Positions 1,687 through 33,707 of a DNA stretch of 34,241 nucleotides are shown here, one piece after another (the first letter of the stretch is position 1; every line of letters starts with the position of its first letter). Source of the stretch: Candidatus Stackebrandtia excrementipullorum (lineage in GTDB: Bacteria > Actinomycetota > Actinomycetes > Mycobacteriales > Micromonosporaceae). The notes below the pieces were generated by a model. That model saw only the letters and a program-made list of their open reading frames with translations, was not told the origin of the DNA and ran no database searches. The stretch is from positions 1-34,241 of the forward strand of contig DXGR01000090.1 of the NCBI GenBank assembly GCA_019113825.1, given 5' to 3'. A program made the translations under genes and the position numbers.

Positions 1687-4600
1687 GGACACGCTCACGG
1701 CCGTCTGGGTGCGCCACCTGGGTGACGCGTCGGAGCATCGTGGATTTCTCGACCTGGGTGGTCATTCGCTCATGGCCGTACGGCTTGCCGCCGACATCCG
1801 GCGTGAGGCCGGTGTCACCGTGCCGGTCTCGCACCTCCTGCGCGGCAACCCGACTCTTGACGACATCCGGCGGACGGCCGCTTTCGACCCGGCCACGGCG
1901 GCCCCCGTCGCTCGGGCCGTTCGGCGGCGACGGCCCGTGTACAGCAGCTGGTCACCTCCCAACGTGCCGTCTGGACGGACCAACAACTCAGAACCGATCG
2001 CAACGCCTACGCCGTCATCGGTGCACTGGCCGTCCCGCAACGCGTGGATGTCGAAAGGCTCACCGAGGGAGTTCGGCGGCTCCTGAGGCATGACGCGTTG
2101 AGTGCGCACCTGGAGCTGTTCGCCAGCGGACCCGCCCTCGTATTCGGTAGGGCCCCCGACGCCGTCGACGTGAAGCGATTCGACACCTCGATCGACTTGA
2201 CGCAGGCCGTCGACGAACTGGTCGCGGAACTGGATCCGGCCAAAGCGCCACTGGGCGTGCTCCCGCGACAACACGACGACGTGGTGATCATCGTGTTGGA
2301 TCACCTTGTCGGTGACGCCGAGGCACTGGATGTTCTGTTCACCGAACTCGCCGCGTCCTACAGCGCCACAACGGGCGGCTGCACGACCTCCGAGTCCTCC
2401 CCCACGCCGTCTTTTGCCTCGTTTGTGGCTCGGCGGCGCCAACGGGAACTGGCCGAACGTGACACGGCGCTGGAACATTGGCGCCGGTTGTTCGACCCGA
2501 TCGACCTCACCGTCGATCTCCCGTTTCCGTCCACAGCCGGTCATCGCGAGACGCCCCTGACGCAGGTGGCCCGACATCGCATCGACGTCGACACCGCCAC
2601 ACGCCTGACCACCGGGCTTCGTGACCGACAAGCGACCGTCGCCTCGGCGTTGGTCTCGGCCGTCGGTGGGCCGTTGGCCCGTGCCCAGGGCCGGGAACAC
2701 TGCCTGCTGGGCGTTCCCTCAAGCCAACGGGTCGACGCCGAGGACGTCGACCTCGTCGGCATGGCGTTGGGTGTTCTCCCGGTCGTCGTCGCCGCCGAAG
2801 GCCCACCCGAACACCGGCTACGCGAGGCACGCGACGCCATGCTCACCGGTCGGGACTTCACCACGGTCGGTGTCGCCGAAGCGGTTCGTGCAGCGGGAGG
2901 GTCGGTCGCGGGGGGTTCACTACCCCTGGCGGCGTGGGTCAACGACCTCACCGGTCGTCGCGTCCCCGAGGGATTCGGTGACGGCGCCCACTACATCGAC
3001 CACGAGCTGGCGCGGCCACTTTTTCCACTCAGCTTCTATCTGCACCGGGTCCGGGACGAACTCGAACTGGTCGCGTTCACCGACGGCAGGCTGTTCACCG
3101 ATACGGGTTATCTGGAACACCTCGTCGGCCAGGTCGTCGACGAGTTGATGCACCTCGCCACCGGGACGTCCGTGCCCAAGGTGCCCCCGCCGGCGCCGGC
3201 CGAGCCCGCCCGTCCCGATGCGGCGCGGCTTCTGGCCGAGGCCCCCGGGCCCGGCGCCGTCGTCGACGCCCGGCATCACCGAACTCCCGCGGATCTGCGG
3301 CGTCACGCCGATGAGATCGAGCGGCTCTGGCGTAACACCACAACGGGGACCGGCGAGGTCGTGCTGGTGCGCGCCACTCGCGACATTCATCTGCTACCGA
3401 CTCTGCTCGGACTGTGGCAGGCCGGATTGACTCCCGCGATCGTCGACGCACTGGTTCCCGCGAACGCGCTCCTCCGACGGGCGGAGTCCGTTGGCGCCCG
3501 GTGGCAGGTCGACACCACCGCTGGTGCCCGGCCGATGGAGATTCCGTCGACGATCGATCGTACGGCCTCCGTCGCCCGCCCGATGGCAGGCGAGCACCAC
3601 ATCCTGTTCACCTCCGGTACAACCGGAGAACCCCGGCCCGTGGCGATGGCGTTGAGCTCCACGCTCGAGGCGTTGCAGGACCTTCTCGAATTCCTCCATA
3701 TCGGACCAAGCGACCGGATCGGGCTCACCAGCGGACTCGGCCACGACCCGATGCTGCGCGACCTGCTCATACCCCATCTCTCCGGCGCCGAGCTGCACAT
3801 TCCGGCCGCCGAGGTTCTCCGCAACCCACGAGCCCTGTCCGACTTCGTCGTCGACGCCGGATTGACTGTGCTGCACGCCACTCCCAGTCTCATGGAACTT
3901 CTACTGGCCGGCGCACCCGACGGCTTCGCCGCGCCCGGCCTGCGCGCCGTCGTCTGCGGCGGTGAACCGCTCAGTGCATGGCTTCTCCACCGCATCCGAA
4001 CCCGACTGCCGTCCGTCCGTGTCCTGAACGCATACGGCTGCACCGAGTCGGCACAGGTCGCCTCGCTACTGGAGCTGACCACAGAGGACGTCGAGGCGGG
4101 TGAACCTCCCATCGGAAACGCGTGCGGCGCCACCTCGGTGTGCGTACTGCGGGGCGATCACATGGCGGCGCCCGGCGAAGTGGGCGAGGTCGCCGTCATC
4201 GGCCCGCACGTGACCCCCGGCGTCCCAGGCGTTCATCGCACCGGCGACCGCGGACGGGTCGACACGAGCGGCCGTATCCATCTGGCCGGCCGATTCGATC
4301 GGCAGTTGCTGGTCGGCGGGTACCGGGTCGCCCCCGAGGCGATCGAGGCGGTCGCCCTGGCTACGCCCGGGGTGGCACAGGCGTGGGCGGGTTTCCACCC
4401 TCCCGAAAACGACACGCTCGTCCTCGCCGTCACCGCCACCGAGTCGGCGGACCCGCGTCCGGAGCTCACCCGCCGCCTCCACCGTGAACTGGAGCGGCAC
4501 GAGGTCCCGGCCCGGATCATGCTGGTCCACGACTTCGCGTTGAACGTTCACCACAAACGCATCGGCCCGGGGCGTCCCGTCGAGGACCCGCCACCCCCGA

Positions 4601-4959
4601 CCGCGTCGGCGAACCCTTCGACGGTCGAGGAGCGGATCATCGCACTCGTCGCGCGCACCGTGGGCCACACGGTTCGCCCGACGGAGAACTTTTTCGACGC
4701 GGGGCTGAGCTCTCTCCTACTTCTGCGGCTCCACGAAGCTCTCCAGAAAGAACTCGACGTCTCACTACCTCCGATCATCCTGTTCGAGCATCCGAATGTG
4801 GCTGCGCTGGCACGGGCGATCGAAAGCCCGAAGGAGCCATCTCCCTCGGTACCCCCGGACGTTCCACGCCGTCGGCGACCTCGAGTCCACAATGCAGGGC
4901 ACCGCAGTGCGCGACGGTCCATGCTCTACGTCGGCATCGAAAAGGACAGTCATGGATGA
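1679..4959 (+). CDS. NRPS, T-C-A-T (reading frame broken near 1902-1906)
   Basis: The ATG at 1679 opens a carrier domain (residues 1-70, LDLGGHSLMAV, phosphopantetheine Ser30). That frame runs on to a stop at 2084-2086 with no further homology. The next domain continues in the -1 frame, open from 1861. It starts as a normal condensation domain around 1945 (VTSQRAVW, then ALSAHLEL), well before the first GTG in that frame at 2044. One missing base would give a 1093-residue protein. The C-domain active motif is DHLVGDA (usually HHxxxDG), keeping the catalytic second His at 2302-2304. The A domain has LFTSGTTGEP (about 3604), NAYGCTE (about 4030), HRTGDRG (about 4234) and GRFDRQLLVGGYRV. Its A4 region is of the GLGHDPMLRD type. 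The final carrier reads FFDAGLSSLLLL, with the probable Ser codon at 4711. The gene overlaps the PKS gene by eight bases. Substrate not assigned. Confidence 0.85.
1902..1906 (+). other. likely frameshift site (C5 run) between T and C domains
   Basis: The carrier domain is in one frame up to about 1890 and the C domain is in the -1 frame from about 1940. The only homopolymer in between is CCCCC at 1902-1906. One extra base here would join both domains into one protein. No classical X XXY YYZ slippery heptamer is present. Confidence 0.5.
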
Positions 4960-7900
4960 CAACACGATCGCCGTGATCGGTGTGGCAGGCAGGTTTCCCG
5001 GCGCAGACTCCGTCGACGCGTTGTGGGAGCTCGTGGTCGGCGGCGGTAGCGGCCTACAACGAGTCGACGTCGACTCGACGATCCCGGGCCGATCACTTCT
5101 CGTCCCAGTGCACGGCACCGCTTCGGGGCTTGACCTTTTCGACCCCGCGGACTTCGGCATGACCTCCCGCGAAGCGGTGGACTGCGACCCCCAGACACGG
5201 TTGCTGCTTCAACTCGTCGAATCCGTCTTCCGCGACGCCGGATACGCGCCCGGCGGGCAGCCGGACACGGCCGTCTACGTCACGGCCGGACACAGCCGAT
5301 ACTCGGAGCTTTTCGGCCCGATCGACTGGGGCAGCAGCCGCGGCATGTCCCTGATGACCGGCACCAACACCGACTACACCTCGTCGATGCTGTCGTACAA
5401 GTACGGGTTCCGAGGCGCGTCGGTGACGGTTCAAACCGCATGTTCCAGTTCGCTCGTAGCCGTTCACCACGCGTGCCAGGCGCTGCTCGACGGGCACACC
5501 GATCTTGCACTCGCCGGTGGAGCGAACGTAGTCCTGCCTCTCGAAAGCGGGTACAGCTGGGAACAGGGCGGCCCCCTCAGCCGCTCCGGTGCATGTCGCC
5601 CCTTTGACGACGCCGCCGACGGAACCGTCTTCACCTCCGGTGGGGCGTTGGTCCTGTTGAAACGCCTCTCCGATGCGCGCCGCGACGGCGATCACGTCTA
5701 CGCGGTGATAGCAGGCGGCGCCGTCAACAACGACGGCGCTCACAAGGCCGGTTTCACCGCACCGTCGGTGATCGGACAGGCCGCCGTCATTGCAGAGGCC
5801 ATGATGGATGCCGGGATCGGACCCGACGACCTGGACGCGATCGAGGGGCACGCAACCGGGACGACCCTGGGCGACGCGATCGAATGGGAAGGCGTCCTTC
5901 GCGCCTTCGAGCTCGCAGGAGGACGGTCCGTCGGACCCTGTTCCGTCACGGCGGTCAAGGGGAACGTCGGTCACCTCGGCCACGCGTCGGGAATCGTTTC
6001 ACTGATCAACGCCGTTATGGCGGTGCATCACCAGCTGATACCGGCCATCGCGGGGTTCACGACACCGAACACCCGCCTGACCACCGCACCCGAACAACTG
6101 TCGTTGCCAACGACAAATCTCTCCGGCCCGGTTCGGCACTGTGGCGTGAGTTCATTCGGCATCGGCGGCACGAACGCACATCTCGTCGTCGGTGCGGCGC
6201 CCCACCACACCCCCGCTCGGGTCGAAGAATCACTCCGCGAGCCGGTTCTGTTGGGCTGGGCCGAAACCAGTGACATCCGCCGCGACGCCTACCGCGGCGC
6301 CCTGGCGGCGTCCCGGGACAGGAACGTCCAGCGAATCGCCAACAGTCTGGCCGAGATCAACACGCACGCCTCGCCGCGTTTCCGGCACCGTGCCGCAACG
6401 GTCGTCGAACCGCACGAGGACTGGCGCGCCGTTCTCGCCGCCGACCCCGCCGTCGTGCATCACGGCCCCGAAACAACCGGCCTCGGGTGGGTTTTCCCGG
6501 GCGAGGGAAGCCTCCCGGCGACCGGAGTCGCGGGGATCCCCGACAATCCACGCACGGCGTCCGCCTTCGCCGCCTGCGCCGACGCCTTCTCGGCGTCGGA
6601 AATCGACCTGGCGGAGTGTATGTCACGGTTCGCCTCCGGAAGCCGAGCGGCGGTCGTCACCGAACCGTTGATCCTTGCGACCTCCTACGCGCTTGGGGTC
6701 GCGTGGCGTGACCTCGGGTCCACACCCGACTTCGTCGCCGGCCGCGGCGTCGGTGAGTTCTGCGCCGGAGTCTTCGCGGACGTGCTCGACCTGGAGGACG
6801 CGTGTCGGCTGGTGGCGCACCGGGCGCGGGCCCTCGACGCCCTGCCACCGGTCCTCAGGCTCTCGATCGTCGGTCCCCGTGACCGGGTTAAACGGTTCCT
6901 GAGTCTCGACCGGGGTAACGCGATCATCGTCGTAGCCGACGACGACCTCGGCCGAGTGACCGTGGAAGGTGCTCCGGAAACTGTTGAGCCGCTTACAGAG
7001 CAGGCCGTCGCCGACGGGCTGCACATCCGGCTGGAGGACGGCGCTTACCCGGCGGGTTCGTTCCATGCCGCCGCCGATTTGACCGACGTCACGGTGTCGC
7101 CTCGACCCGGTTCGTCGACGGCGCCGACCCACTTGAGCCTGGCCGCTGTGGACGAAAGCCCCGGTCAGGCGTCGTACTGGTGGGCTATCACCGCCGCCGG
7201 TGTCCGCGACGATCGACTGGTGGAACGCGTCGACACCGCCGACGCACTGATGTTGGAGGTCGGGGCCGGCTCCACCGGCACCGCGCTGATCAACCGGCTG
7301 AAGCCGGGACGAGCCGTCGCCTCCCTTCCCGACGGCGCCGACCGACCCGACCAGGTCGAATATGCGCTCCTGCAGGCCGCGGCACGTGTGTGGGCCGCCG
7401 GTCACGACCTGGACTGGTCGACGCTGAGGAAGCAGGACGCCGGGCGTGCCCGCCTCCCGGGTCGCGCCGTGTCCGGCACTCGACACTGGCCGTCCACTCC
7501 GGCACCCGTCGTCGACACCACGGTGGTCCCCTCGATGACGCACGAACGCTTTCCGGGGCTGAAGACCACCACCCCGGGTTGGGCACGCGCGTTCGACGCC
7601 GAGTCCGCCTCACCGCCGTCCGGACGGAAAACCCTCGGCATTCTGATCGGCGAATGTGGACCCGAGCTGGAACGGGTTATCGCGAAGACCGCACCGACGT
7701 CCGCGCCCATGAGGCTTCCGCTATCCGGCGACCTCCGTGAACAGATCGTCTCGGTGATGAGGTCGCAGGCCGACGAGGGCCTCGATCACCTCGTGCTGGG
7801 GCTGGGCGCCTGCTCGAACTCGGCGACCGACACGGTGGCCGAACAGTGGCAAACGGGTTTCGGTGCCGTCGCGGCTGCCGGTGCCGGCCTGCATGCGGCG

Positions 7901-9182
7901 TCCCTGACCTCGTGTGACCTGACCGTGGTGACCACAAAAGGTATCGACGTCACCGGAGACGAGCCCCTCCTCCCGGGACGGGCCGCCGTCGGACCGCTGC
8001 TGCGCACCCTCGTGCAGGAAGGCTCCGTGGCACGCGGCGCATGGTGCGATGTCTCCAGCACCACGAGGCACGTCAACGTCCCCTACGTTCGACCGACCCG
8101 TGACGTGCCGTTCGTGGCGGTCCGTGGTCGTCGAATCTGGAGCGAACACCGGTCGACGGTCGGCCCCGGTCAGACGGTGGCGAAGACGCCGACGGGCGCC
8201 CACTATCTGATCACCGGGGGGACGGGGGCACTGGCGGGCGTTCTGGCACGTCACATCGCACGCCTCGACCCGGCGGCGCGCATCACGCTCATGGCACGAC
8301 GTCACCGTGAGCCGACCGAGGCGCATCGCGAAGCCGCGGCGCTGGGCGCGGACCTGAGGGTGGCCGTGTGCGACCTGTCCCGAATCGACTCGGTCGCCAC
8401 GGTCGTCGACGACGCCGTGACCGCTTGCGGGCCACTCCACGCCGTCTACCACCTCGCCGGCGCACCCGGAGCGGGCGTCACCGCGTTGGCCGACCATTCA
8501 CGGTCGGAGGCGGTCCAGGCGAAGGTGTACGGCACCGAGGCCCTTGTTCATGCGTTGGAACGCCACCGCCCGCCGTCTCTGCTCGTCGGCTTCTCCAGCC
8601 GCGCCGCCCTGACCGGTCAGCCCGGCGGCGGCGACTACGCGGCCGCGAACGCGGTGATGGAGGCTCTCCTGTCACGGGCGCCGGCCGAACGGATCGTCAA
8701 CATTGCGTGGGCGGCGTGGGCCGAGGTGGGCATGGCCGTGCCGTTCCTGCGCACCCCGCAGGGAGACGCGCGCGCCGCGATCTCGACCGCCGACGCGGAA
8801 GTTCTCCTGAACAGCCTGTTGACGGACGAGTTCCCCGACCGTGTGCTGGTCGAGGTCACCGACGAAGACGTCGCGGCGTCACCACCGAACAACATTCCTC
8901 CACAAGAGATGAGTGCTGGGCTCGATGTTCAGACCTCGACCGCCGACACCGGTGACGAATCGGTCGTGGACGCGCTGGCCGCGATATGGGGTGACCTGCT
9001 CGGGACGACCGAGGTCGACCTGGACGCCGACTTCTTCGAATCGGGGGGGCAACTCCCTGACCGCCGTCGAATTGTCGTCGCGGGTGGAAGACGAACTGGG
9101 GATCGAAGTCGACCTCGTCGATCTCTTCGAAGCTCCCACACTCCGGGGCCTCACCGCCTTGGTCGAGAAAGGCGGCGAATGA
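4952..9182 (+). CDS. type I PKS, KS-AT(inactive)-KR-ACP (frame broken at 9043-9049)
   Basis: The ATG at 4952 follows AAGGA at 4942-4946. The KS spans residues 1-415, with the triad Cys164 (TACSSS), His300 (GHATGTTLGD, where most KS domains have HGTGT) and His341 (GNVGHLGHASG). An AT-like region follows at about 505-760. The nucleophile motif GHSxGE is GRGVGE there (Arg598, Gly599), the first motif is VFPGEGS, and no HAFH-type motif is present, so it should not load an extender. The KR (about 1085-1260) has TGGTGALAG, Lys in AKVYG, Ser in FSSRAAL, and Tyr1229 and Asn in DYAAAN, so it looks active. The ACP begins at about 1335. Its FFESGG is in the main frame, but NSLTAVELSSRV continues in another frame after a G7 run. 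Removing one G gives 1409 residues ending at 9182. If the frame is not restored, translation runs into the next gene. Confidence 0.9.
9043..9049 (+). other. G7 run breaking the ACP reading frame
   Basis: The bases for ESGG are followed by seven consecutive G. With six G the frame reads SGGNSLTAVE, the classic carrier motif with its phosphopantetheine Ser, and ends at the TGA at 9180-9182. With seven, the Ser is lost and the frame fuses to the LanB-like gene. A single-base homopolymer error in the assembly is the simplest explanation. Confidence 0.75.
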
Positions 9183-11485
9183 TGGACCACCTCCCTCACC
9201 TGGTAACCGGTTGGCGTACCTGGCCGCGCTTCGTGGTGCGCCACGCCGGGTTCCCCGCCGCCCTGGCGTTCGCACTCAGCGACCCGGAGCTGGCGGAAGC
9301 GGCCGACAAACGGATCGGCGAAGACGGTCCCGTTCGGAACGCCGAGTTCGACGCCGCCTTCGAACGGGCCGCGACACGAATGACAGCGACGTTGCGCGAC
9401 AACGCCGCCGACCCGCGTTTCCGGGAGGCCGTCGGCTGGCAGAATCCCAAGCTGATCTCCACCTGCCTCGACAAGGTCGTTCGCGGTGAACCGCGGAATG
9501 TACGCGGCCGCAACCACGAGGCGACCGTGGCCGCCTATTCGCAGCGATACGGCCTGAAAAACGACACCATCGGGTTCTTCGGCCCGGTGGGGTGGGGTGA
9601 ATGGGGGCCCGGCACCGAACACGGGATCTCCTGGGCGGAGAACGCAACCGTCGGTGGTCGACGGGTGACCTATCACGAATGTTGGGCCATCGACGCGATC
9701 GCCGAGACCTTCTGTGCCGACCCGGCCGCCAGACCGTTCCTGGTGCCACGCCTGTCCGGCGCGGTTTCCGTGACGGGGCGGCTGGTCCGGGGCGGGCCGT
9801 CACTTCGATTCCTCAACGAGCGGGAACGTGCCGTCGTCGACGTCTCCGACGGTGACCGCGACCTGCGCACCATAGCCGGCCTGCTGGCGTGGGGCGTGCA
9901 CGCCGAGCTCGGCGACCTCGACCGGCTGTGGACGGTCGTTTCCCACCTGGTCGACACCGAGGTTCTGGAATGGACGTGGCTCGGCCCTATCGAGGCACGA
10001 CCGGAACGGCGGTTGCGGGCCCGGTTGGAACTCATCGCCGACCCCAAGGTCCGCACGGACCTCCTGGGCCGACTCGACGAGTACCTGCAATACGGGGCGG
10101 CCGTACACGATGCCGAGGGCGACGTCGAGAGGCTCGGCCAGGCCTTCGACGATCTGGGAAAGGCGTTCGAGCACATCACGGGGCGCGAGGCGTCACGACG
10201 CGACGGCCAGAACTACGCCGGACGAACCCTGGTGTACCAGGACATGCGGTCGGAGGTGAACGTTGTCGCCGACGAACTCCTCCGTAAGCACATGGAACCC
10301 CTCGGGACCGTCTTGGATTCGGCGAACTGGCTCACGGATCAGGTGGCCGAGCGTTACCGTCGACTCTTCGGCGACCTGTTCGACGGCGAGGCCGAAGACG
10401 GGCGACTTCCCTTGTCGGCCTTGCTGTCTCGGGCAACACCACACCTGTACCTGACGGTCCGGGACGTCCCGGCCCTCGTCAAGGACGCCCGCGCCGAACT
10501 CCAACAACGATGGACGCGGATTCACGGCGCCTACGACGGAGGCCCGGACGTGACGCTGCCCCTGGAAGAGGTTCGGGAACGCGCATTGCGGGAATTCGGT
10601 CCGCCCGGTGAACCGGCCTGGCCGACCGCCTACTGCCACAGTCCGGACATGATGGTCGCCGGGAACGGGGACGATCTGTCGACGGGACGTTCCCGGGTGG
10701 TGCTCGGGGAACTGCACGTGGCGGTCAACACCTTGGAAAGTCGTGTCTTCGTCGAACAATCCGGGGACGCCGACGCCATGGTGCGAGCCGCAGAACTCAG
10801 CAGCAACGGCACCCGCTACTACGCCGTCGCGGCGAAGAAATGGCCCTGGGTAACGTCGCGGCTTTCCCCGCCGACGGCCCTCCTGTCGCCACGGTTCCGT
10901 TACTGGTCGCTTCACGCGCCGAGCATCGAAGCCCCCGGAGGGTGTACCCCGGCGGCGGATCTCTCCGTGACGCGTGTGAACGGTGAACTGCGTGTCCTAC
11001 AAGGTGACGGCGAAGACTACGGCCCTTTGATACACGTCGTCGGCGAGCTGCTGGCGGCATCGGTGGCAAACGCGTTCTCCGTGGCTCCTCCGTGGCGGCG
11101 ACGCCCACGCATCACCGTCGGTGGCCTGGTTCTGGCTCGCCGCGGGTGGACCTTCGACGCGTCCGACATCCGATGGGCGGACATCAACGACGAGCGAACC
11201 CGTTTCGTCGAGATGCGACGGTGGCGTCGGGCCGAGGGCATTCCGGAACGCGCGTTCTACAAGGTCCCCATCGACGACAAGCCCCTCTACGTCGACGGAA
11301 GCAGCATCGTTTTCGTCAACACCCTGGCCAAGGCGATCAGACAGACCGCGGCCAAGAACGGCACCGTCACGTTCACCGAGATGCTCCCCGACGAGGGTGA
11401 GCTGTGGCTGGAACGCGGCGGGCGGCTCCATACCGGTGAGTTTCGCTTCGTCGCGGTCCCGGCCGAAGGAAGGCGGCACGTATGA
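9179..11485 (+). CDS. LanB-like (lantibiotic dehydratase N-terminal family) protein
   Basis: I start it at the tandem ATGATG (9179/9182), which overlaps the PKS stop once the upstream frame is repaired. The upstream in-frame sequence is only an artefact of the G7 run. The protein has about 768 residues. It shows the layout of the Lant_dehydr_N family: an N-terminal VRHAGFP, then NDTIGFFGPVGWGEW at about residues 130-144 where class I dehydratases have their STPFGLF-type motif. The C-terminal part contains PRITVGGLVLARRGW, then FYKVPIDDKPLYVDG, then VTFTEMLPDEGELWL. Family members use aminoacyl-tRNA: LanB uses Glu-tRNA to activate Ser/Thr, and PEARL enzymes add amino acids to peptides. There is no separate SpaB_C elimination domain and no precursor peptide nearby. 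A role on a carrier-bound or free intermediate is inferred. Family call fairly sure, function unknown. Confidence 0.75.
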   Translation: MMDHLPHLVTGWRTWPRFVVRHAGFPAALAFALSDPELAEAADKRIGEDGPVRNAEFDAAFERAATRMTATLRDNAADPRFREAVGWQNPKLISTCLDKVVRGEPRNVRGRNHEATVAAYSQRYGLKNDTIGFFGPVGWGEWGPGTEHGISWAENATVGGRRVTYHECWAIDAIAETFCADPAARPFLVPRLSGAVSVTGRLVRGGPSLRFLNERERAVVDVSDGDRDLRTIAGLLAWGVHAELGDLDRLWTVVSHLVDTEVLEWTWLGPIEARPERRLRARLELIADPKVRTDLLGRLDEYLQYGAAVHDAEGDVERLGQAFDDLGKAFEHITGREASRRDGQNYAGRTLVYQDMRSEVNVVADELLRKHMEPLGTVLDSANWLTDQVAERYRRLFGDLFDGEAEDGRLPLSALLSRATPHLYLTVRDVPALVKDARAELQQRWTRIHGAYDGGPDVTLPLEEVRERALREFGPPGEPAWPTAYCHSPDMMVAGNGDDLSTGRSRVVLGELHVAVNTLESRVFVEQSGDADAMVRAAELSSNGTRYYAVAAKKWPWVTSRLSPPTALLSPRFRYWSLHAPSIEAPGGCTPAADLSVTRVNGELRVLQGDGEDYGPLIHVVGELLAASVANAFSVAPPWRRRPRITVGGLVLARRGWTFDASDIRWADINDERTRFVEMRRWRRAEGIPERAFYKVPIDDKPLYVDGSSIVFVNTLAKAIRQTAAKNGTVTFTEMLPDEGELWLERGGRLHTGEFRFVAVPAEGRRHV

Positions 11486-12738
11486 CGGTACGTGTGGCCG
11501 GTGCCGGTGAACGCCAGTTCTGGGCTTACGAGCAGCTTCATGAGGACGGGGACGCCACTCTTCTGGTCGGCGCCTTCGAGTTGGACGGTGAACTGGACGT
11601 CTCGACGGTTCGCTTCGCGACGAAGACCCTCATCCAACGGCACGAGATTCTGCGCTCGGAGTTTCGTCGCGTCGGTGGCGACGTGACCGTGGTCAGGCAT
11701 GAGGCCGCGACCGTGCCCGTCGACGTCGACACGGTCGTCGCCCGGAATCGAGAAGAGGCGGTCGCCGTTGCACACCGGTTGGCGTCGCAGCCGGTCGCCC
11801 TGGACCGTCCACCGTTGTTGCGGGTGGCCCTGGTGTCGTGGACGCGTTCACGGCACATCCTGGTGCTGGTCTCCCACCACGCCGTTCTCGACGGCGCTGC
11901 CCTGGGCGTTTTGGCCGGAGAGTTCGGGCGGCTTGTCGACCCGACGTCGGAACCGTTGCCGGACCCGGTCTCTTTGAGCGAACTGCGGGCCGCAGAGGAG
12001 ACGAGACGCACCTCAAACGCTTGGCAACGCGACATCGACTACTGGTGTGACCAGCTCGCGCTCGTCGAGTCGGACCCGTCGGTCTCCGGTGATCCGTCCC
12101 GTCCCGCCGACAGCGACGACAAGTACATCGACACCGAATCGACGGATCGACTGCGCCGGCTGGCGAGTCGGCTGCGAGCCAGCCCCACGATCGTCCTGTT
12201 GGCCCTGTGGGCCGACCACCTGTTCGAGCATCGACGGGCGTCCGCGGTGGTGATCGGCGTCCCCGTATCCGGGCGTGCCGATCCACGACATCGAGCCGTG
12301 GTCGGGCTGCTCATGAACACGATTCCCCTGGTGGTACCGCACACCGAGGGGACCTTCACCGAACGGGTCGCCGCGGTGCGCCGTGTCTTTCTTCAGGGGC
12401 TGCGACACCATCGAGCGCCCCTGGTCGAGGTGGCCCGGGCGGCCAGACCGGGTCAAAGCCTGGAGGTCGCGCCGCTGTACTGGGCGATGTTCAGCCAGGG
12501 AGAGCAGTCCACTTTGACCTTCGGTGGGCACGCCGTCGAAAGGATGCCCATGGGCGGGGACACCACCGACGCGCCCGTGTCCTTCGTCATGGTCGAAGAG
12601 GCGTCGGGTGGTATCCGCACCTCACTGTCGATCGAGGATGGATTTGCTTTCGGGGACGGCGGCGCACGAGGACACCTGGAACGGTTCCACAGTCGTCTCA
12701 CCGAGGTTCTGTCCGGCGAGGAGGGGACGGCCTCATGA
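11482..12738 (+). CDS. free-standing NRPS condensation domain
   Basis: This 418-residue protein is one complete condensation domain and nothing else. It has the opening GERQFWAYEQL, then IQRHEILRSEFRR at about residues 51-63. The active motif HHAVLDG is perfect at about 132-138, and the later VGLLMNTIPLVV matches the usual VGxFxNT motif. The start ATG at 11482 overlaps the LanB-like gene stop (ATGA). In the family such domains form an amide or ester bond between a carrier-bound acyl group and a carrier-bound or free nucleophile. With several orphan carriers in this operon it probably joins two intermediates in trans. Which two cannot be told from the sequence. Confidence 0.88.
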   Translation: MTVRVAGAGERQFWAYEQLHEDGDATLLVGAFELDGELDVSTVRFATKTLIQRHEILRSEFRRVGGDVTVVRHEAATVPVDVDTVVARNREEAVAVAHRLASQPVALDRPPLLRVALVSWTRSRHILVLVSHHAVLDGAALGVLAGEFGRLVDPTSEPLPDPVSLSELRAAEETRRTSNAWQRDIDYWCDQLALVESDPSVSGDPSRPADSDDKYIDTESTDRLRRLASRLRASPTIVLLALWADHLFEHRRASAVVIGVPVSGRADPRHRAVVGLLMNTIPLVVPHTEGTFTERVAAVRRVFLQGLRHHRAPLVEVARAARPGQSLEVAPLYWAMFSQGEQSTLTFGGHAVERMPMGGDTTDAPVSFVMVEEASGGIRTSLSIEDGFAFGDGGARGHLERFHSRLTEVLSGEEGTAS

Positions 12739-13976
12739 GCGAGCCGGTCTCGTCCGTCGACGTGGCGCCCCGCCACGGTGGCTCGAACCCCGACGACCAC
12801 GCGGACGTCATCGTCGTCGGTGCGCGGTGCGCGGGCGCGCCGGTGGCGATGTTGCTGGCCGAGACCGGCATGCGGGTCATCGTGTTGGACGACTCTCCGC
12901 CACAAGCGGACCCGATGACGACGTTGCTGATCCAACCGCCCGGGGTCGAGCTGCTCGACCGATGGGGTCTGGGAGCTCGAGTCGCCGCGCTGAAAGCTCC
13001 ACCGATCACCCGTTACGTACACAGACTGGACGATCTGACGGTGGAGGGAACCGTCGGACCTCGGGGTCCCGCCCTCGCTCCTCGACGTCCCGCTCTCGAC
13101 GACGTACTCGTCGAGGCTGCTCGACTGGCCGGCGCGGAGGTGCACCGACGGGCCCGTGTGATATCGCTGAGTCGGGACGACGGCACCGTGACCGGCGTCG
13201 AAGCGCGATTCGCCGACGGGAACCGCATGTGGCTGACGGCCGACCTCGTCATTGGAGCGGACGGCATCAACTCCACAGTGGCCCGATTGGTCGACGCGGA
13301 GTCGCTGTGGGACGACGGCACGCTCAGCTGCGCCTACTACTCCTACCTGCCCGCGGTCGACTCGGCCATCCGGCTGCACGAAACCGACCGACAACTGGTA
13401 ACGCACCTGCCGACCAGCGACGGCGAAGCCGTCGTGGCCGTCTATCGGCCGAAAGACCTGTTCACGCGGCTACGTCAAGACCCACGACGGCACTATCTCG
13501 CAGCTTTGGCCGACACCCCCGGCCTGCAACATCTAGCCGAGCGCTCCCCCGCGGATCTGCCGGGGTTCACCGGTACCGGCAGACAACCCAACTACCTGCG
13601 CCGAGCGACCGGGCCCGGCTGGTTGCTGCTCGGCGACGCGGCACACAACCGGGACAGCATCACCGCCTGGGGCATCGCCCAAGCGTTTCGACAGGCCGAC
13701 GGCGTCGCCGACGTCATCGCGAACCATCTCGGGGGCCCCGAGCTCGTGACGGCACTCGAAACCTTCTGGGAAGCCGAGAGGGAACGGTTGGCCGGCCCAT
13801 ATCGGGCCACCTTGAAACTGGCACGTCTTCGAACCGACGACAGCCGACGCGCGTTCTTGGCCGGCGTCGTCGCGGCCGGTCACCAGGACACCTACGTCCA
13901 GGCACTCGTCTCGGGTAGTACGGCGGCGCTCCTTGACGGCGTCGTCGATCACGTATTCGCAGGAGGGCACGCATGA
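12735..13976 (+). CDS. FAD-dependent oxidoreductase/monooxygenase
   Basis: The start at ATG 12735 overlaps the C-domain stop, giving 413 residues. A FAD-binding Rossmann motif VIVVGARCAGAPVA is at about residues 26-39. This variant with VGARCAG is common in actinobacterial class A flavoprotein oxygenases. The middle has ADLVIGADGINSTVARL (GADGxxSxVR type, about 170-190). The second FAD motif, LLLGDAAHNRDSITAWG, is near 298-314. I see no WxWxIP motif, so it is not an obvious tryptophan-type halogenase, and no membrane segment. It probably hydroxylates or oxidises the peptide or polyketide intermediate in the cytoplasm. The substrate is unknown. Reductases of the geranylgeranyl type share the fold and cannot be excluded. 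Confidence 0.85.
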   Translation: MSEPVSSVDVAPRHGGSNPDDHADVIVVGARCAGAPVAMLLAETGMRVIVLDDSPPQADPMTTLLIQPPGVELLDRWGLGARVAALKAPPITRYVHRLDDLTVEGTVGPRGPALAPRRPALDDVLVEAARLAGAEVHRRARVISLSRDDGTVTGVEARFADGNRMWLTADLVIGADGINSTVARLVDAESLWDDGTLSCAYYSYLPAVDSAIRLHETDRQLVTHLPTSDGEAVVAVYRPKDLFTRLRQDPRRHYLAALADTPGLQHLAERSPADLPGFTGTGRQPNYLRRATGPGWLLLGDAAHNRDSITAWGIAQAFRQADGVADVIANHLGGPELVTALETFWEAERERLAGPYRATLKLARLRTDDSRRAFLAGVVAAGHQDTYVQALVSGSTAALLDGVVDHVFAGGHA

Positions 13977-16168
13977 CGTCGGCCACAACGGTTGTCACCA
14001 CCGTCCTCACGGCTCCCGACTCCTTCACCGCACGGCACGCCGCCGTGCGTCTACTGGAGGACACGCCGACTCTTCGTTCGCGTGTCGAACGCGTCGCCGA
14101 AGCCGGGGACCCGATCCTGTTCACCGTGGTCTCCGACGCGGCGGATCCGTCGATGGACAATACTGCGTGTGGAACGGTGTTCTGGTCCGAATCCAGGACG
14201 GCCGACGAGGTCGTCGGTGTCCTCGGTGTCGTCGTCGACGTCGGCACAGCGGCGGCGATATCGCACTCCTCCGACAGGTGGACCTCTCGCGACCCCGGCG
14301 GCCCGAACCAAGACGCCTCCCCCGCCCGTCTCGGAACGAAGGCACCGGGAGAGGACTGGGATGTCACGGATCTGCTGCGTGGCCCCGACGACGTCGTCGC
14401 CGTACAGGACGGCCGCGAATCCCTCCGTTATGGAGAATTGCGCGCGGCGGCCGAGGCGGTGGCCGCGGGCATCGTCGACAGCGGCCCGACCGGTCGCATC
14501 CTGATACGCGGTCGCCGCGACGTCCGGACGGTGGTGGCCATGCTCGGCTGCTGGTTGGCATCGACCGCGTGGTGCGCCGTCGACATCACGGCCCCTCGTG
14601 CACGCCGCGACGCGATCGAATCCGATGTGCGCCCCGATCTCGTCCTCGACTCGGCCGATGTGGAACTGCGAGGCACACCGAATTCTCCGGCGGTTCGAAA
14701 ACCGAGCCGGATTCCCGCAGACGCCGTCGGCTATCTCGTCGCCACATCCGGCAGCACGGGCCGCCCCAAAGTTTCCGCGCTACCCGCAGGCGGTCTGCGT
14801 CCACTGCTGCGAGCCTGGCGGCGTGAGTACGCGTTCACCTCTCCGCAACGGGTATGTCAGATCGGGAGCCTCGAAGGCGACGTCTTCATCGGTGACATGC
14901 TCAAAGCCCTGGACACCGCCGGCACCCTACACATCGTCCCGGATGAACAACGTGCCGATCCGGAAGCGGTCGCCGACCTCGTCGATCGGTACACGTGCAC
15001 CTTCATCGAATCGACCCCGGTGTTGGTCACGGCCGTGCTGCGCGAACTGGCTCGCGGCGATCTTCACCGACCGACCGTAACCGTCGTCGGTTCCGATGTG
15101 TTCCGCGCCAACGAGGCACGTCACCTCGTCGAGCTTGCCGCCGGCCGGACGCGCGTCGTCAACGGTTACGGCACCACCGAGTGCATGATCGAGTCGCTGG
15201 TATACGACTGCACCGAACTCCCCACAGACCATGAGGGACTGTGTCCGATCGGTAGGCCGCTCGACGGGACCGCGGTCACCGTTCGACGTCCGGACCACAC
15301 CGTGGCGGCCGTCGGCGAGGTCGGCGCACTGCACCTGGCGGCACCCGGGGCGACCCTCGGGTATCTGACGGCCGGGAAACTCACGCCCGTGGGCCCGGAA
15401 CTCGACACCGGGGACCGAGCGGCCGTCGACCCCTCCGGTTTCGTGGCCTTCCACGGCCGGGCCGACGCGATGGTCAAGGTACGTGGGTACCGGGTCGAAC
15501 CGGCCGAGGTCGAGGACGCGTTGTTGACCGTGGCCGGCATCGGGGAAGCCCATGTGACCTCCTTCCGACGCGCCGGAGCAACCGAGTTGGTGGCATTCGT
15601 TTCCGGGAGCAACGACATCGACGCTGCGACGGTGCGGTCGGCACTGCGAGGAATCCTCACCGAAGGTGCCATCCCGGCCCGAATACAGGTCATGGCACGT
15701 CTTCCGCGGCTCGAGACCGGGAAACTGGACCGGTTGGCGCTGGCCCGGGAGGCCGAACGGTACGAGCGGGACCCCCTCGCCCCGCGGCCGTCCCGGACGG
15801 AATCCGACGTGGAGGGCCCGGCGGGGTTGCGACAGACGGTCGCCCGATGTTGGGAAGCCGTATTGGGAGGTCCAGCCGATCCGTCCATCGGATTCTTCGA
15901 TCAGGGCGGAACCTCCGTATTGCTCATCGCCTTGGCCGAGGAATTGCGTACGGCGCTGGGCGCGAACCATCCCGTGGCGGTGGCAGACCTGTTCCGTTAC
16001 CCGAGCATCGACACCTACATCGGGATGATCGAGCGTCGACGCTCGACGAGATCGGTTCCCCCACCATCCGAACCGAAACCCGCCGATCTTGATCGTCGCG
16101 GCATTCTGGAGGCCGTCGCAGCCGGACGGATGTCGGTGGCGGAAGCCCGCCGCCTGATGGCGTCATGA
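13973..16168 (+). CDS. NRPS, A-T with N-terminal extension and C-terminal docking-like helix
   Basis: This 731-residue protein begins with about 120 residues I cannot assign; they may be a worn-down condensation-type fragment. The adenylation domain follows: VATSGSTGRPKV (about 254), NGYGTTE (about 397), LDTGDRAAVD (about 478), GRADAMVKVRGYRVEP and the A10 Lys in LETGKLDRLAL (about 579). Hand alignment to GrsA gives pocket residues D235, V236, G239, E278, T299, V301, G322, I330, E331 and K517. The two acidic residues point to a basic amino acid such as ornithine, tentatively. The carrier has FFDQGGTSVLLI (about 640). The last 25 residues, with ILEAVAAGRMSVAEARRLM, match the N-terminal helices of the two PKS proteins downstream. 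It overlaps both neighbours by four bases. Confidence 0.88.
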   Translation: MTSATTVVTTVLTAPDSFTARHAAVRLLEDTPTLRSRVERVAEAGDPILFTVVSDAADPSMDNTACGTVFWSESRTADEVVGVLGVVVDVGTAAAISHSSDRWTSRDPGGPNQDASPARLGTKAPGEDWDVTDLLRGPDDVVAVQDGRESLRYGELRAAAEAVAAGIVDSGPTGRILIRGRRDVRTVVAMLGCWLASTAWCAVDITAPRARRDAIESDVRPDLVLDSADVELRGTPNSPAVRKPSRIPADAVGYLVATSGSTGRPKVSALPAGGLRPLLRAWRREYAFTSPQRVCQIGSLEGDVFIGDMLKALDTAGTLHIVPDEQRADPEAVADLVDRYTCTFIESTPVLVTAVLRELARGDLHRPTVTVVGSDVFRANEARHLVELAAGRTRVVNGYGTTECMIESLVYDCTELPTDHEGLCPIGRPLDGTAVTVRRPDHTVAAVGEVGALHLAAPGATLGYLTAGKLTPVGPELDTGDRAAVDPSGFVAFHGRADAMVKVRGYRVEPAEVEDALLTVAGIGEAHVTSFRRAGATELVAFVSGSNDIDAATVRSALRGILTEGAIPARIQVMARLPRLETGKLDRLALAREAERYERDPLAPRPSRTESDVEGPAGLRQTVARCWEAVLGGPADPSIGFFDQGGTSVLLIALAEELRTALGANHPVAVADLFRYPSIDTYIGMIERRRSTRSVPPPSEPKPADLDRRGILEAVAAGRMSVAEARRLMAS

Positions 16169-16974
16169 CCACCCGACGTGTCAAGGCGTTCGAGCACGGC
16201 CTCGTCGTGAACCCGGACGCACAGGGCAACACGGTGATCATGCTGCACCACGCCGGAGCCACCGCGGCGTCGCTGCTCGCTCTGGCTCGCGGTCTTCCGT
16301 CGCACCATCGGGTCGTTCTCGTGGATCGCGCAGGTCGTGGGGTTCGATCCCGGGAGAAGCGCGTGGAGACGTTCGAGGGCGTCTCAAACGATTTGGTGAA
16401 CGTCGTCGCTCCGTTCACCGACCGGCCGACGATCCTGTTCGGGCACAGCATGGGTGCCATGCTCGCCCACGAGCTGGCAGTGGAACTCCTGTCGCGGGGG
16501 ACCCCGCCGTCGTCGGTACTGCTGTCGGGTACACATCCGACCCGCAGCGAACTCACCGATCTCGACCTGTCGGCGTCCCATGTGGTGGCCGATCGACTGG
16601 AGCGGCTCGGGGGCACGCCACCGGAGGTGTTGGCCGACCCGGCGCTGCTCGAACTCGCCGTCGAGATATTCACCGACGACCTTCTGATCTTGCGCACCTA
16701 TACCGCGCCCACCCCACTACCACCCGGCACCGGCATACGCCACCACCTGTGGTTGGGAGCCGACGACCCGACTCTGTCCGTCCTCGACGACGGTCTGTGG
16801 CGTGACCGCGCCGGCGTCGCCGCCGAGGTCACGCTCTTCTCGGGCGGACACTTCTTCCTGTTCGAAAACCCACGCGTGCCCGATGCACTGGCGCACTTCG
16901 TATCCACCGAAACAAAGCCACCCGAGAAGCGCCTTGCGACGACTCCCGAACCTCCGAAAGAGAGGCGACCATGA
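16165..16974 (+). CDS. type II thioesterase
   Basis: This 269-residue alpha/beta hydrolase is of the editing thioesterase family found in NRPS/PKS clusters. It has a strand and oxyanion loop VIMLHHAGATAAS near residue 28. The nucleophile elbow FGHSMGAML has Ser95, there is a late acidic position in LWLGADDPTLS, and the catalytic His is in SGGHFFLFE. These proteins normally remove wrong or stalled acyl groups from carrier domains. It sits between the A-T and KS-ACP genes with ATGA overlaps. It is one of three thioesterases in the operon and the most conventional of them. A product-release role is possible because no module ends in an ordinary C-terminal TE. Confidence 0.9.
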   Translation: MTTRRVKAFEHGLVVNPDAQGNTVIMLHHAGATAASLLALARGLPSHHRVVLVDRAGRGVRSREKRVETFEGVSNDLVNVVAPFTDRPTILFGHSMGAMLAHELAVELLSRGTPPSSVLLSGTHPTRSELTDLDLSASHVVADRLERLGGTPPEVLADPALLELAVEIFTDDLLILRTYTAPTPLPPGTGIRHHLWLGADDPTLSVLDDGLWRDRAGVAAEVTLFSGGHFFLFENPRVPDALAHFVSTETKPPEKRLATTPEPPKERRP

Positions 16975-19058
16975 AGGACCCGGTCTTGATCGTGATGGAG
17001 CTCGTCGCGTCACAGACGATCGGCCGTGACGACGCGCGTGCCCTTCTTGCCGCGCTTCGTTCGGACGCGACGGCACCGACCCGGCCGGAACCGCGCGGGA
17101 CCGATGAGCCTATCGCCGTCGTCGGGGTGGCCTCCCGGTTGCCGGAAGCCCCCACCTATTCCGACTTCTGGCCGGTTCTGGAGGAGGGACGCGACTGCAG
17201 CCGTCGGCTTCCACCCGCACGCCGCGATCTCTGTGACGTGATGGGGATCGAGAATCCCGAGTACCTCTTCGGCAGCTGGATCGACGACATCGACCAGTTC
17301 GATCACGAGTTCTTCGGCATCACCCCGGCCGACGCGTTCAGCATGGACCCGACCCAGCGTGTGTTCCTGCAAACGGCCTACCACTGCCTCGAAGACGCCG
17401 GTTGGGCCGGACGCATCCGAGGAACCCGGACGGGCGTCTACGGCAGCTTCGACGGCGGCGACTACCGTCTGGCCGTTCCGGCCGATTCGCCGTCCGATGT
17501 GCCGGGACGGATCGGATCGTTTGCGGCAAGCCGGTTGTCGTTCTGGCTGGACCTGTCCGGGCCCGCCTCGGTGACCAGCTGTACGTGTTCGTCCTCGGCG
17601 TTGGCCGTGCACCTGGCCTGCCAGGGAATCCGCTCGGGCGACTGCGACATGGCGATCGTCGGCGGTGCCAACATCCTCAGTTTCCCGGTGCAACGTCCCA
17701 GCCTGCTCGCCGACGCCTCGGGGATCATGGCCGGCGACGCGACGTGTCACCCGTTCGCGGCCGACGCCAAGGGCATCGGCCGAGGTGAGGGCGTCGCCGC
17801 CCTGATGCTTCGTCCCCTCTCGGCGGCGTTGGCGGACGGTGACCGCATCCGCGCGGTGATTCCGGCCTCGGCGGTCAACAACGACGGACACTCGGCGATG
17901 CTCACCGCCCCGGATCCCGCCGCGCAGGCCGAGTTGCTCATATCCGCGTGGGCCAAGGCCGGGTGGGACCCGAAGACCGTCGACTACATCGAGGCTCACG
18001 GCACCGGAACCCAGCTGGGGGATCCCATTGAGATAAAGGCCCTTCACGAGGCCGCCCGTGCCCATGATGTTCCGGCCCAGTCCATTGCGTTGGGCACGGT
18101 GAAGGGCAACATCGGTCACCTTCTCGACGGTGCCGCGGGTCTTGCGGGGATCGTCAAGGCGCTGCACGTCCTGGAACACCGGGAGGTCCCGCCGACGGTG
18201 AATCTGACCGAGCCGTCCCGCCACATCGATTTCCTGTCCGCTCCGGTGTTCATCCCGACGGAGCCGTGGGCCCTTCCCGTCACCGAAGACCGTCCGCTCC
18301 GTGCCGGAGTGAGCTGTTTCGGGTTCAACGGCACCAACGTCCACCTGCTCTTGGAAGGCGCGCCGACACAGGACACCGAGCCCGCGACGACCGGACCGGA
18401 GACGACACTGGTCCCGCTGTCGGCACGCTCGCCGGAAGCCCTCGAACGGCTGGTCGCCTTGATGGCGGAGCAGCCGATCAACCACACCGTTTCGGATCTT
18501 GCGTGGACGTTGACGGTCGGGCGTGAACAACACCCGCGCCGGGTGGCTCTTCTCGCCCGTACACCGGATGACGTTCGGCGGCTGTGTCACGCGCTTGCCG
18601 AGATGCCGTCGGATCAGTGGCACACGGTGTCGGGCGTCGTCACCGATTCCAGTCGCCCCGTCGACGGACAGGTGACCGACGCGTGGGAACGGGCACGCTC
18701 GTGGGTGGCCGGTGAAGACCTGAAACCCTCCGGAACCGGTCGGATCGTCGACGCGCCGCTATATCCGTTCGCGCGCAACAGTTTTTGGCCCCGACCGACC
18801 ACGGGCGAAGAGGGGACTTCACCGTCGCCGTCGTCTCCGATGGAAACGATCCTGAGCATCGTCGAAGACGTTTTGGGCATGGACTCCCTCACGCCCGAGG
18901 ACTCGTTCCTCGCCTTGGGCGGCAGTTCACTGGCCGCGATCAAGATCCAGGTCGAGGTTCGTCGCAATCTCGGGGTCGAGGTGGACATGGTCGACATCCT
19001 CGGTGCCGAAACCCTTGCCGAGTTCTATTCCGCGGTCGTCGAAGGACAAACACCATGA
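16971..19058 (+). CDS. type I PKS, KS-ACP, no AT (trans-AT type)
   Basis: The 695-residue protein opens with a short helix-like segment (VMELVASQTIGRDDARALL), a putative docking element. The KS spans about 43-470, with Cys206 in the unusual context SCTCSSS (normally DTACSSS), EAHGTGTQLGDPIE and KGNIGHLLDGAAG, so the catalytic triad is complete. After the KS there is a linker with VSDLAWTLTVGREQHPRR and a post-AT-like strip ending LYPFARNSFWP, but no acyltransferase between them. The ACP (about 620-690) has FLALGGSSLAAIKIQ. With no reducing domain it should add one C2 unit and leave a beta-keto group, using the free AT at 22794-23975. It overlaps neighbours by four bases on both sides. Confidence 0.92.
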   Translation: MKDPVLIVMELVASQTIGRDDARALLAALRSDATAPTRPEPRGTDEPIAVVGVASRLPEAPTYSDFWPVLEEGRDCSRRLPPARRDLCDVMGIENPEYLFGSWIDDIDQFDHEFFGITPADAFSMDPTQRVFLQTAYHCLEDAGWAGRIRGTRTGVYGSFDGGDYRLAVPADSPSDVPGRIGSFAASRLSFWLDLSGPASVTSCTCSSSALAVHLACQGIRSGDCDMAIVGGANILSFPVQRPSLLADASGIMAGDATCHPFAADAKGIGRGEGVAALMLRPLSAALADGDRIRAVIPASAVNNDGHSAMLTAPDPAAQAELLISAWAKAGWDPKTVDYIEAHGTGTQLGDPIEIKALHEAARAHDVPAQSIALGTVKGNIGHLLDGAAGLAGIVKALHVLEHREVPPTVNLTEPSRHIDFLSAPVFIPTEPWALPVTEDRPLRAGVSCFGFNGTNVHLLLEGAPTQDTEPATTGPETTLVPLSARSPEALERLVALMAEQPINHTVSDLAWTLTVGREQHPRRVALLARTPDDVRRLCHALAEMPSDQWHTVSGVVTDSSRPVDGQVTDAWERARSWVAGEDLKPSGTGRIVDAPLYPFARNSFWPRPTTGEEGTSPSPSSPMETILSIVEDVLGMDSLTPEDSFLALGGSSLAAIKIQVEVRRNLGVEVDMVDILGAETLAEFYSAVVEGQTP

Positions 19059-22792: not shown

Positions 22793-22793
22793 G

Positions 22794-33572: not shown

Positions 33573-33606
33573 CCAACCGGTCCCCCTGTGTTGGGCAGTC
33601 CGATGT

Positions 33607-33640
33607 TGCCTTGCCGGTTAAGGCATTGAGCCAAGGGCTC
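33607..33640 (+). terminator. two small hairpins after the operon
   Basis: Directly after the last operon gene there are two adjacent perfect inverted repeats: TGCCTT/AAGGCA (33607-33612 and 33620-33625, seven-base loop) and GAGCC/GGCTC (33628-33632 and 33636-33640, three-base loop). No T tract follows, as is common for high-G+C terminators. The stems are short, so this is only a candidate end of the operon transcript. Confidence 0.35.
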
Positions 33641-33707
33641 CCCCACCATGGCGAATTTGGTTCTAAAGATTAGGGTCTGGACGTAACGGCTTCGAAGCAG
33701 GATCCAG

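Follow-up and report, generated by a model that had tools for sequence, protein, structure and literature searches.

The closest described relative of the system treated here is the sna cluster of Stackebrandtia nassauensis, in which SnaE, an enzyme of threopeptin biosynthesis that resembles the peptide aminoacyl-tRNA ligases (PEARLs), is required for the attachment of Thr to a nonribosomal chain (Yu and van der Donk 2024, PMC11212132). In that report, the mechanism of SnaE is inferred to be PEARL-like, with use of ATP and an aminoacyl-tRNA, and the acceptor carboxylate is exposed by a ureido-forming condensation (C) domain with the core EHHxxHDG; whether the substrate is a bound or a free intermediate is left open (PMC11212132). 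The same report counts about two thousand nonribosomal peptide synthetase (NRPS) and polyketide synthase (PKS) clusters with a gene annotated as a lantibiotic dehydratase (LanB), and puts fusions of such genes to thioesterase (TE) and thiolation (T) domains on record (PMC11212132). Here we analyse one LanB-like gene, at 9179-11485 in a window of 34,241 bases that is the complete contig C75 of the 4.17 Mb draft genome of Candidatus Stackebrandtia excrementipullorum. In the reading that we favour, a PEARL-type ligase would have been recruited into a hybrid NRPS/PKS assembly line, where the carboxylate that it extends might be left free by an adenylation (A) domain.

Among the literature searched, sna (PMC11212132) was the only NRPS/PKS cluster with a LanB that had been worked out. 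For work from 2024 on, judged on titles and the beginnings of abstracts, PMC11212132 was the only report on NRPS-linked LanB proteins; the term ‘threopeptin’ led only to the 2024 paper and its preprint, and a search for LanB with C and A domains in Micromonospora returned nothing. No worked-out LanB cluster of this kind lacking a ureido-forming C domain was noticed in the available excerpts of PMC11212132. The original prediction, made from the window's letters, had presented the gene as part of a little-described system; with SnaE characterised in 2024 and some two thousand such clusters counted (PMC11212132), that description has been overtaken.

A LanB-type protein without an elimination domain

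The open reading frame (ORF) runs from an ATG at 9179 to a stop at 11483-11485 and encodes 768 amino acids, with a PKS gene on one side and a stand-alone C-domain gene on the other. The protein had been assigned to the lantibiotic dehydratase N-terminal family, with no elimination (SpaB_C) domain, and both statements were borne out in hidden Markov model searches. The Pfam model PF04738 (Lant_dehydr_N) covers residues 77-400 (E 2.4e-16, 59.5 bits against a cut-off of 28), and the elimination domain PF14028 gave no match in the protein up to E 1. An NCBIfam scan of the protein returned no family up to E 0.01, and a sequence-only search of solved structures gave just two matches, at E 0.25. An AlphaFold2 model built from 47 sequences (mean pLDDT 90, pTM 0.89) was then compared using Foldseek, which gave 11 PDB chains at E ≤ 0.001, all of them TbtB, MibB, MadB, GodF or NisB, with TbtB (6ec7) at E 2.7e-24. 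The product is thus a LanB-glutamylation-type protein without an elimination domain.

By our own gene calls, sixteen plus-strand genes cover positions 355-33572 with zero intergenic gaps. Outside these genes only 1-354 and 33573-34241 are left as non-coding sequence, so the operon has no intergenic space for a precursor peptide gene; this agrees with the earlier statement that no precursor gene is visible, and it applies to intergenic room between 355 and 33572, with overlapping frames and the contig flanks, of which the right one contains small ORFs, lying outside the check. As there is no space for a gene encoding a ribosomal carrier peptide, we do not file the protein with the PEARLs that act on ribosomally synthesised and post-translationally modified peptides (RiPPs).

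Conserved residues point to a probable ligase

According to PMC11962472, the ATP- and substrate-site residues of the RiPP PEARL BhaBC-Trp are D558, E575, R715, F755, E813, R815 and R34, and its tRNA contacts are R197, Q201, Y205, R208 and R429. By order and spacing, R34, Y205, R208, D558 and E575 correspond to R21, Y120, R123, D490 and E511 of the window protein, and R715, F755, E813 and R815 to R654, F693, E754 and R756 (PMC11962472). The successive spacings from D490 to R756 are 21, 143, 39, 61 and 2 residues, versus 17, 140, 40, 58 and 2 in BhaBC-Trp (PMC11962472). In an alignment of 27 sequences that includes both the window protein and SnaE, seven of the nine mapped residues are identical in 27/27, among them the Tyr-x-x-Arg pair Y120 and R123, with R21 in 25/27 (two gaps) and F693 in 24/27. 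A 47-row alignment gave a similar picture: R123, D490, E511 and R654 at 47/47, E754 and R756 at 46 (one gap), Y120 and F693 at 45/47, and R21 at 38/47 (nine gaps).

The genome also holds a LanB paralogue of a different kind. PF14028 has a single match in the whole genome, on contig C148, where the elimination protein adjoins a 946-residue glutamylation-type protein in what is a separate split LanB system outside the window (L189:4945-8936, minus strand). Compared with the family profile, this paralogue reads VLNRTY for VLGELH and E-I-T for E-x-R and has a gap at D490; the Tyr-Arg pair of the tRNA helix is retained. D490, E511 and R756 are present in the window protein and their counterparts are missing in the paralogue. 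An ATP site lost from the paralogue and present in the window protein matches the difference expected between dehydratase and ligase reactions.

Several observations weigh against this assignment. The mapping onto BhaBC-Trp was made from the order and spacing of the residue numbers published in PMC11962472, and not from an aligned PEARL sequence. For two of the published tRNA contacts, R197 and Q201, spacing leads to no conserved counterpart, as residues 112 and 116 vary, and R349 (47/47) matches R429 only loosely in spacing. The C148 paralogue also retains the counterparts of R654, F693 and E754, so the contrast comes down to three positions.

On balance we read the window LanB as an aminoacyl-tRNA ligase and not as a dehydratase. 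Judging from its sequence, it is probably a PEARL-type ligase that forms amides with the use of ATP and aminoacyl-tRNA and acts on a nonribosomal acceptor. The original prediction had left two roles side by side for a carrier-bound intermediate, addition of an amino acid from an aminoacyl-tRNA, or dehydration. Addition to an assembly-line product is now the best reading; dehydration is less supported, since the protein retains the ligase ATP-site residues, three of which the paralogue with the elimination partner lacks. Neither a nearby precursor gene nor a loss of all tRNA- and substrate-contacting residues was found in the intergenic space of the operon and the alignments examined, in which the main tRNA- and substrate-site residues are kept.

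A candidate source for the acceptor carboxylate

The C domains of the window have the cores LDHLVGDA, SHHAVLDG, VHHVAFDG and ACHLVMDV, and the ureido-forming signature EHHxxHDG was not found in any of them. On this ground ureido chain reversal as in sna was set aside; the absence lowers that reading and leaves a SnaE-like way of working unaffected.

A different source is suggested by A1, the A domain of the module before the first PKS, which has the pocket code DPRHVGAQV. We take D-P-R-H to open the code of Lys2, which activates aminoadipate through its side chain, as well as the code of iso-Glu domains in microcystin synthetases (McyE). Literature searches for the Lys2 and iso-Glu code strings and on McyE found no paper that gives them. 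The extraction of codes from 50 background A domains gave strings such as DVWHVSLID and DFWNVGMVH, which are codes for Ser and Thr. The Lys2 model TIGR03443 is the second-best NCBIfam model for the window's A1 pocket (68.9 bits) and the best model for the DPRH domain of genome G009 (149.1 bits, versus 121.8 for the generic model).

Here, too, there are points on the other side. The generic model beats the Lys2 model on the window's own A1 (102.1 versus 68.9 bits), and control domains with other codes scored 60.7, 28.5 and 23.9 bits with TIGR03443, a model that did not appear at all for one further control. The resemblance of A1 to Lys2 is thus modest, and its sequence offers no ground for preferring Asp over Glu or aminoadipate.

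DPR-type A domains and LanB genes across genomes

A1-like domains were searched for in 300 genomes of the family (G###; E up to 1e-40) and found in 16, the window's genome included, with one match each; all 16 codes read DPR[HQDN]. A LanB match was present in 13 of the 15 other A1-like genomes, against a background of 122/299 (hypergeometric p 2.6e-4), and in 9 of the 15 the LanB lay 1.4-10.5 kb from the A1-like domain on the same contig. Generic A domains lay within 25 kb of a LanB in 7/53 cases among the matches listed (Fisher p 1.4e-4 versus 9/13), a baseline made up of the listed A domains in 12 genomes with known LanB places. Because the genomes are related, the p-values should be taken as rough guidance. 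An arrangement A(DPR), KS...T, LanB, where KS is a ketosynthase domain, was seen in the window and in L108, L111, L112 (= G172), L114, L129, G282 and one of the two G158 loci, and spans named Streptomyces, Micromonospora and Salinispora as well as the window's genus.

Wider LanB contexts were collected with an alignment query, which found relatives of the protein where a scan with the single sequence had found none. The alignment query confirmed 413 candidate stretches, of which the best 80 of 413 were kept, giving 75 named loci (L###); these cover up to 10 kb on each side, and the counts take in features that share the strand of the best LanB. A domains without a readable code were excluded, and 217 were kept. 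In the named loci we see a ureido-forming C domain in 4, a DPR-type A domain in 6, a DAR-type A domain in 25, only a fusion of A domain and LanB in 3, other NRPS/PKS features in 28, and no NRPS/PKS feature in 9. The corresponding counts in 30 family contexts, the window included, are 2 with a ureido-forming C domain, 2 with both this domain and a fusion, 6 DPR, 1 DAR, 11 with only a fusion, 6 other and 2 with none. Across all 105 contexts, which are not independent (L109/G057, L112/G172, L131/G026 and L134/G052 are very likely the same places), the EHHxxHDG core occurs in 8, a DPR A domain in 12 and a DAR A domain in 26, and the ureido core occurs together with a DPR or DAR A domain in none. 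The ureido route accounts for a minority of contexts and the DPR route for another minority.

An Arg at position 239 was found in 39/217 A domains of LanB contexts versus 0/50 domains from the generic search, although these 50 are top scorers of the generic model or picks from its list and biased to common substrates, with L190 and L209 lying within 25 kb of a LanB. A second group with this Arg has the code DARLxSQMT. The gene for such an A domain adjoins LanB in 25/75 named loci (L139, L140, L143, L145, L146, L150, L151, L155, L158, L160, L162-L164, L166-L170, L172-L176, L179 and L182), with LanB on both sides in 24 and with 22 of the 25 in Streptomyces. The DARL-type domain scored 23.9 bits with TIGR03443 and is not Lys2-like by this model, so an acidic substrate for it would be read solely from the Arg.

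In a quick tree of 58 LanB rows, with a midpoint root for drawing only, the window protein and SnaE (G046) fall on one side of a branch that takes in 29/58 rows (SH-aLRT 100). The labels on this side are 9 DPR, 5 ureido-forming C domain and 15 neither.

A number of these results do not favour a general link between DPR domains and LanB. Genomes G020 and G114 lack a LanB match despite carrying a DPR A domain, the two features are on different contigs in G288 and 43 kb apart in G206, and the loci of G055 and G094 are interrupted by contig ends. Among the 29 LanBs that share the window's side of the branch, 15 lack both a ureido-forming C domain and a DPR A domain in the stretch covered, and some of these are close to the window's protein (L110 and L113, and likewise G057/L109 at 41-43% identity).

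Other arrangements were observed in the same survey. In two loci of a Micromonospora type, a small ORF lies between LanB and a C-A gene (L032:18205-18630, minus strand; L036:9509-10054, plus strand) and comprises a T domain and the terminal part of an A domain, matching AMP-binding_C from position 42; in the C-A ORF that follows, the A domain ends at position 37-38 of the same model. The A domain is thus split, and its order appears to be permuted. A partial A match directly after LanB was also seen in L112, L114, L119 and L122. In G182 (L047) and G001 (L048), LanB is fused in frame as A-T-C(EHHFxHDG)-A-T-LanB and is followed by C-A-T. For the LanB relatives of L109 (Phytohabitans suffuscus) and of L113 and L118 (Streptomyces), NRPS domains were scarce or absent up to 10 kb away; the LanBs of L109 and L113 are 41-43% identical to that of the window.

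Gene content, synteny and frame changes

The genes of the operon are collected in Table 1.

Table 1. Genes called in the window, with positions in the 34,241-base stretch.
Gene product	Position	Strand	Basis and remarks
Major facilitator superfamily (MFS) efflux pump	355..1686	+	PF07690 1.1e-24
NRPS T-C-A1-T	1679..4959	+	A1 pocket code DPRHVGAQV; C core LDHLVGDA; first T PF00550 2.3e-11; frame change ~1867-1933
PKS KS-acyltransferase (AT; degenerate, GRGVG)-ketoreductase (KR)-T	4952..9182	+	Frame change at G run near 9043-9049
LanB-like protein, putative PEARL-type ligase, 768 aa	9179..11485	+	PF04738 2.4e-16; fold matches; mapped ATP and tRNA residues kept
Stand-alone C domain, core SHHAVLDG (non-ureido signature)	11482..12738	+	PF00668 2.2e-42
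FAD-dependent monooxygenase-like protein	12735..13976	+	PF01494 4.9e-24
NRPS A-T, code DVGEVGGIE	13973..16168	+	Domain scan, code extraction
Type II thioesterase	16165..16974	+	PF00975 1.9e-30
PKS KS-T, no AT match	16971..19058	+	Domain scan
PKS KS-KR-T, no AT match	19055..22792	+	Domain scan
Stand-alone AT, intact GHSLG, presumably trans-acting	22743..23975	+	PF00698 1e-31
NRPS C-T-C with C-terminal methyltransferase	23972..28309	+	Domain scan
Thioesterase with C-terminal T domain (TE-T)	28306..29298	+	PF00975 3.7e-25, PF00550 6.8e-14
A domain interrupted early by methyltransferase, code DLFDMSLVW	29295..31571	+	Domain scan, code extraction
Third thioesterase	31564..32328	+	PF00975 5.9e-24
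ATP-grasp L-amino-acid ligase-like protein	32325..33572	+	PF18603, PF13535; ORF from 32097, start is one of several candidates

The nearest NCBIfam models for the MFS pump are tetracycline pumps, with scores far below their cut-offs. The code DVGEVGGIE resembles those for Orn and other basic amino acids, and DLFDMSLVW is close to cysteine codes. The first PKS has GRGVG in its AT in place of the expected GHSxG, and GHSLG is found in the stand-alone AT, which makes loading in trans likely. No reductase domain turned up in Pfam scans of the window ORFs.

The nearest relative, at 46% identity, is L108 of Streptomyces sp. IBSBF 2953, where 15 of the 16 window genes are collinear over 33 kb at 36-62% identity; the ATP-grasp gene is the only one without a match in the 50 kb compared. 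The T-C-A-T and PKS genes of L108 are uninterrupted, its AT is also degenerate (GHGVG), and its PKS has a dehydratase (DH) domain for which the window counterpart shows no match. Two distant actinomycete genera share this gene order, and the cluster of the Streptomyces, in which the T-C-A-T and PKS genes are uninterrupted, offers an entry point for experiments.

The gene had been described as translationally coupled between a PKS and a free C domain. Its position is as stated, while the coupling does not hold for the sequence as it stands, where the PKS frame reads through into LanB without a stop (ORF 4796-11485). Within the carrier-protein domain of the PKS the frame shifts at a run of seven G (~9043-9049), and the second half of the domain continues in another frame, whose stop at 9180-9182 overlaps the LanB ATG. 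This frame change, together with the separate and uninterrupted gene in L108, speaks against ORF 4796-11485 as a real in-frame PKS-LanB fusion. Because the syntenic Streptomyces gene is uninterrupted and separate, the change looks like a slip of sequencing or assembly. A second frame change, at ~1867-1933 in the T-C-A1-T gene, lies in a region that includes five consecutive C, which suggests that both are homopolymer errors of the assembly.

Proposed mechanism and alternative explanations

The substrate that we propose for A1 is an acidic amino acid of the Asp, Glu or aminoadipate type, which would be activated at its side-chain carboxyl and keep an exposed alpha-carboxylate. The LanB would then use ATP to phosphorylate this free carboxylate, on an assembly-line intermediate or a released product, and the amino group of an aminoacyl-tRNA would attack the phosphorylated group. 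Hydrolysis would release the tRNA, and the chain would be lengthened against the direction of the NRPS, a course also proposed for SnaE. Sequence and structural model show the family, the fold, kept residues at the putative ATP and tRNA sites, the lack of an elimination partner in the cluster and the conservation of the cluster between genera. The chain of steps as a whole, with the A1-derived alpha-carboxylate as acceptor, is a tentative proposal that we rate a little below an even chance. What we infer to be new here is that the free carboxylate would come from A1 and not from a ureido-forming C domain.

The main rival is that the ligase extends an ordinary C-terminal carboxylate after thioesterase release, as a late tailoring step to which A1 is unrelated. 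Three thioesterase genes are present in the cluster, and a TE is fused in frame to LanB in 5/30 family contexts (G188, G232, G036c, G062 and G009), an arrangement that fits release followed by extension; the recorded thioesterase fusions and the undecided bound or free state of the SnaE substrate point the same way (PMC11212132). The window-type LanB, however, adjoins a PKS and not a thioesterase, and its neighbourhood is linked to DPR-type A domains, so that we find this explanation unlikely, if well worth keeping in view. The two readings are compatible with each other, because the fusions in G062 and G009 are accompanied by a DPR A domain.

In a second alternative, a carrier-bound Ser, Thr or beta-hydroxy acid would be O-aminoacylated with Glu from tRNA, and elimination elsewhere would give a dehydrated unit. 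This would agree with the LanB fold and with the upstream PKS, whose KR would leave a beta-hydroxyl that, unlike in the Streptomyces homologue, meets no DH match. Conserved ligase-type ATP-site residues would be pointless in such a reaction, and the genome's sole PF14028 match lies on a different contig, which makes it improbable.

We find it equally hard to credit that the LanB is a degenerate, inactive remnant in a decaying cluster. The two frame changes (near 1867-1933 and 9043-9049), the degenerate AT and the altered core of the first C domain (LDHLVGDA) would suit decay, but the LanB itself is intact with its conserved residues kept, the collinear relative has uninterrupted T-C-A-T and PKS genes, and the degenerate AT is shared with that relative, with a separate GHSLG-containing AT present.

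Finally, the tRNA could be a carrier, with the chain moving from the PKS carrier to an aminoacyl-tRNA and the free C domain using the peptidyl-tRNA ester as donor; a LanB right after a T domain and before a C domain does recur, including in-frame A-T-LanB followed by C-A-T, but PEARLs are reported to hydrolyse the tRNA ester (PMC11212132, PMC11962472 and PMC12945691), a thioester acceptor would make the kept ATP site unnecessary, and no C domain is known to accept a tRNA ester; we regard this as highly improbable.

Should side-chain-activating A domains offer these ligases a second entry by leaving a carboxylate free, one could predict, for many clusters that lack a ureido-forming C domain, which residue of the product is branched and that a tRNA-derived proteinogenic amino acid is attached at that residue. 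Such an entry would likewise provide a genetically simple route to graft an amino acid onto a nonribosomal scaffold. More broadly, a second, tRNA-fed direction of growth might be opened in several ways, by a ureido-forming C domain, a DPR-type A domain and perhaps a DARL-type A domain, to give products branched at an acidic residue; we consider this generalisation possible and rather doubtful.

Comparison with known systems

The class I dehydratases NisB, MibB and TbtB share the overall fold (TM-score 0.61-0.64 on the query). They differ from the window protein, which has no elimination domain or precursor and has the three ATP-site residues that the C148 paralogue lacks. The RiPP PEARLs TglB, AmmB2 and BhaBC, as described in PMC11962472 and PMC12945691, are likewise glutamylation-type proteins without an elimination domain, with counterparts at nine positions; they extend the C-terminus of a ribosomal carrier peptide, for which the window operon has no intergenic room, and they have two more published tRNA contacts that lack a conserved counterpart in the window protein. 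For A1, the comparison is with Lys2 and iso-Glu A domains, which share the D-P-R-H start of the pocket and differ at the remaining positions.

The closest likeness is to SnaE. Genome G046, of the same genus as the window, has the order A-T-C(EHHLVHDG)-A-T, KS-AT-T, TE, LanB, which is the published sna order, and on motif and gene order we have taken this locus as the sna locus of Stackebrandtia nassauensis, with the MbtH and dehydrogenase genes outside the comparison. The two proteins share their family, 36-40% identity over two segments, an NRPS/PKS setting without a precursor and the nine mapped residues. The sna locus alone has the ureido-forming C domain EHHLVHDG and has no DPR-type A domain; the window, in contrast, has no EHHxxHDG core, and its A1 is of the DPR type. 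In addition, LanB is followed there by a stand-alone C domain, the AT of the first PKS is degenerate, and another AT stands alone. In short, the window system is of a known kind, the SnaE-type tRNA-fed extension, and appears to differ from it in the source of the acceptor, which is a predicted one.

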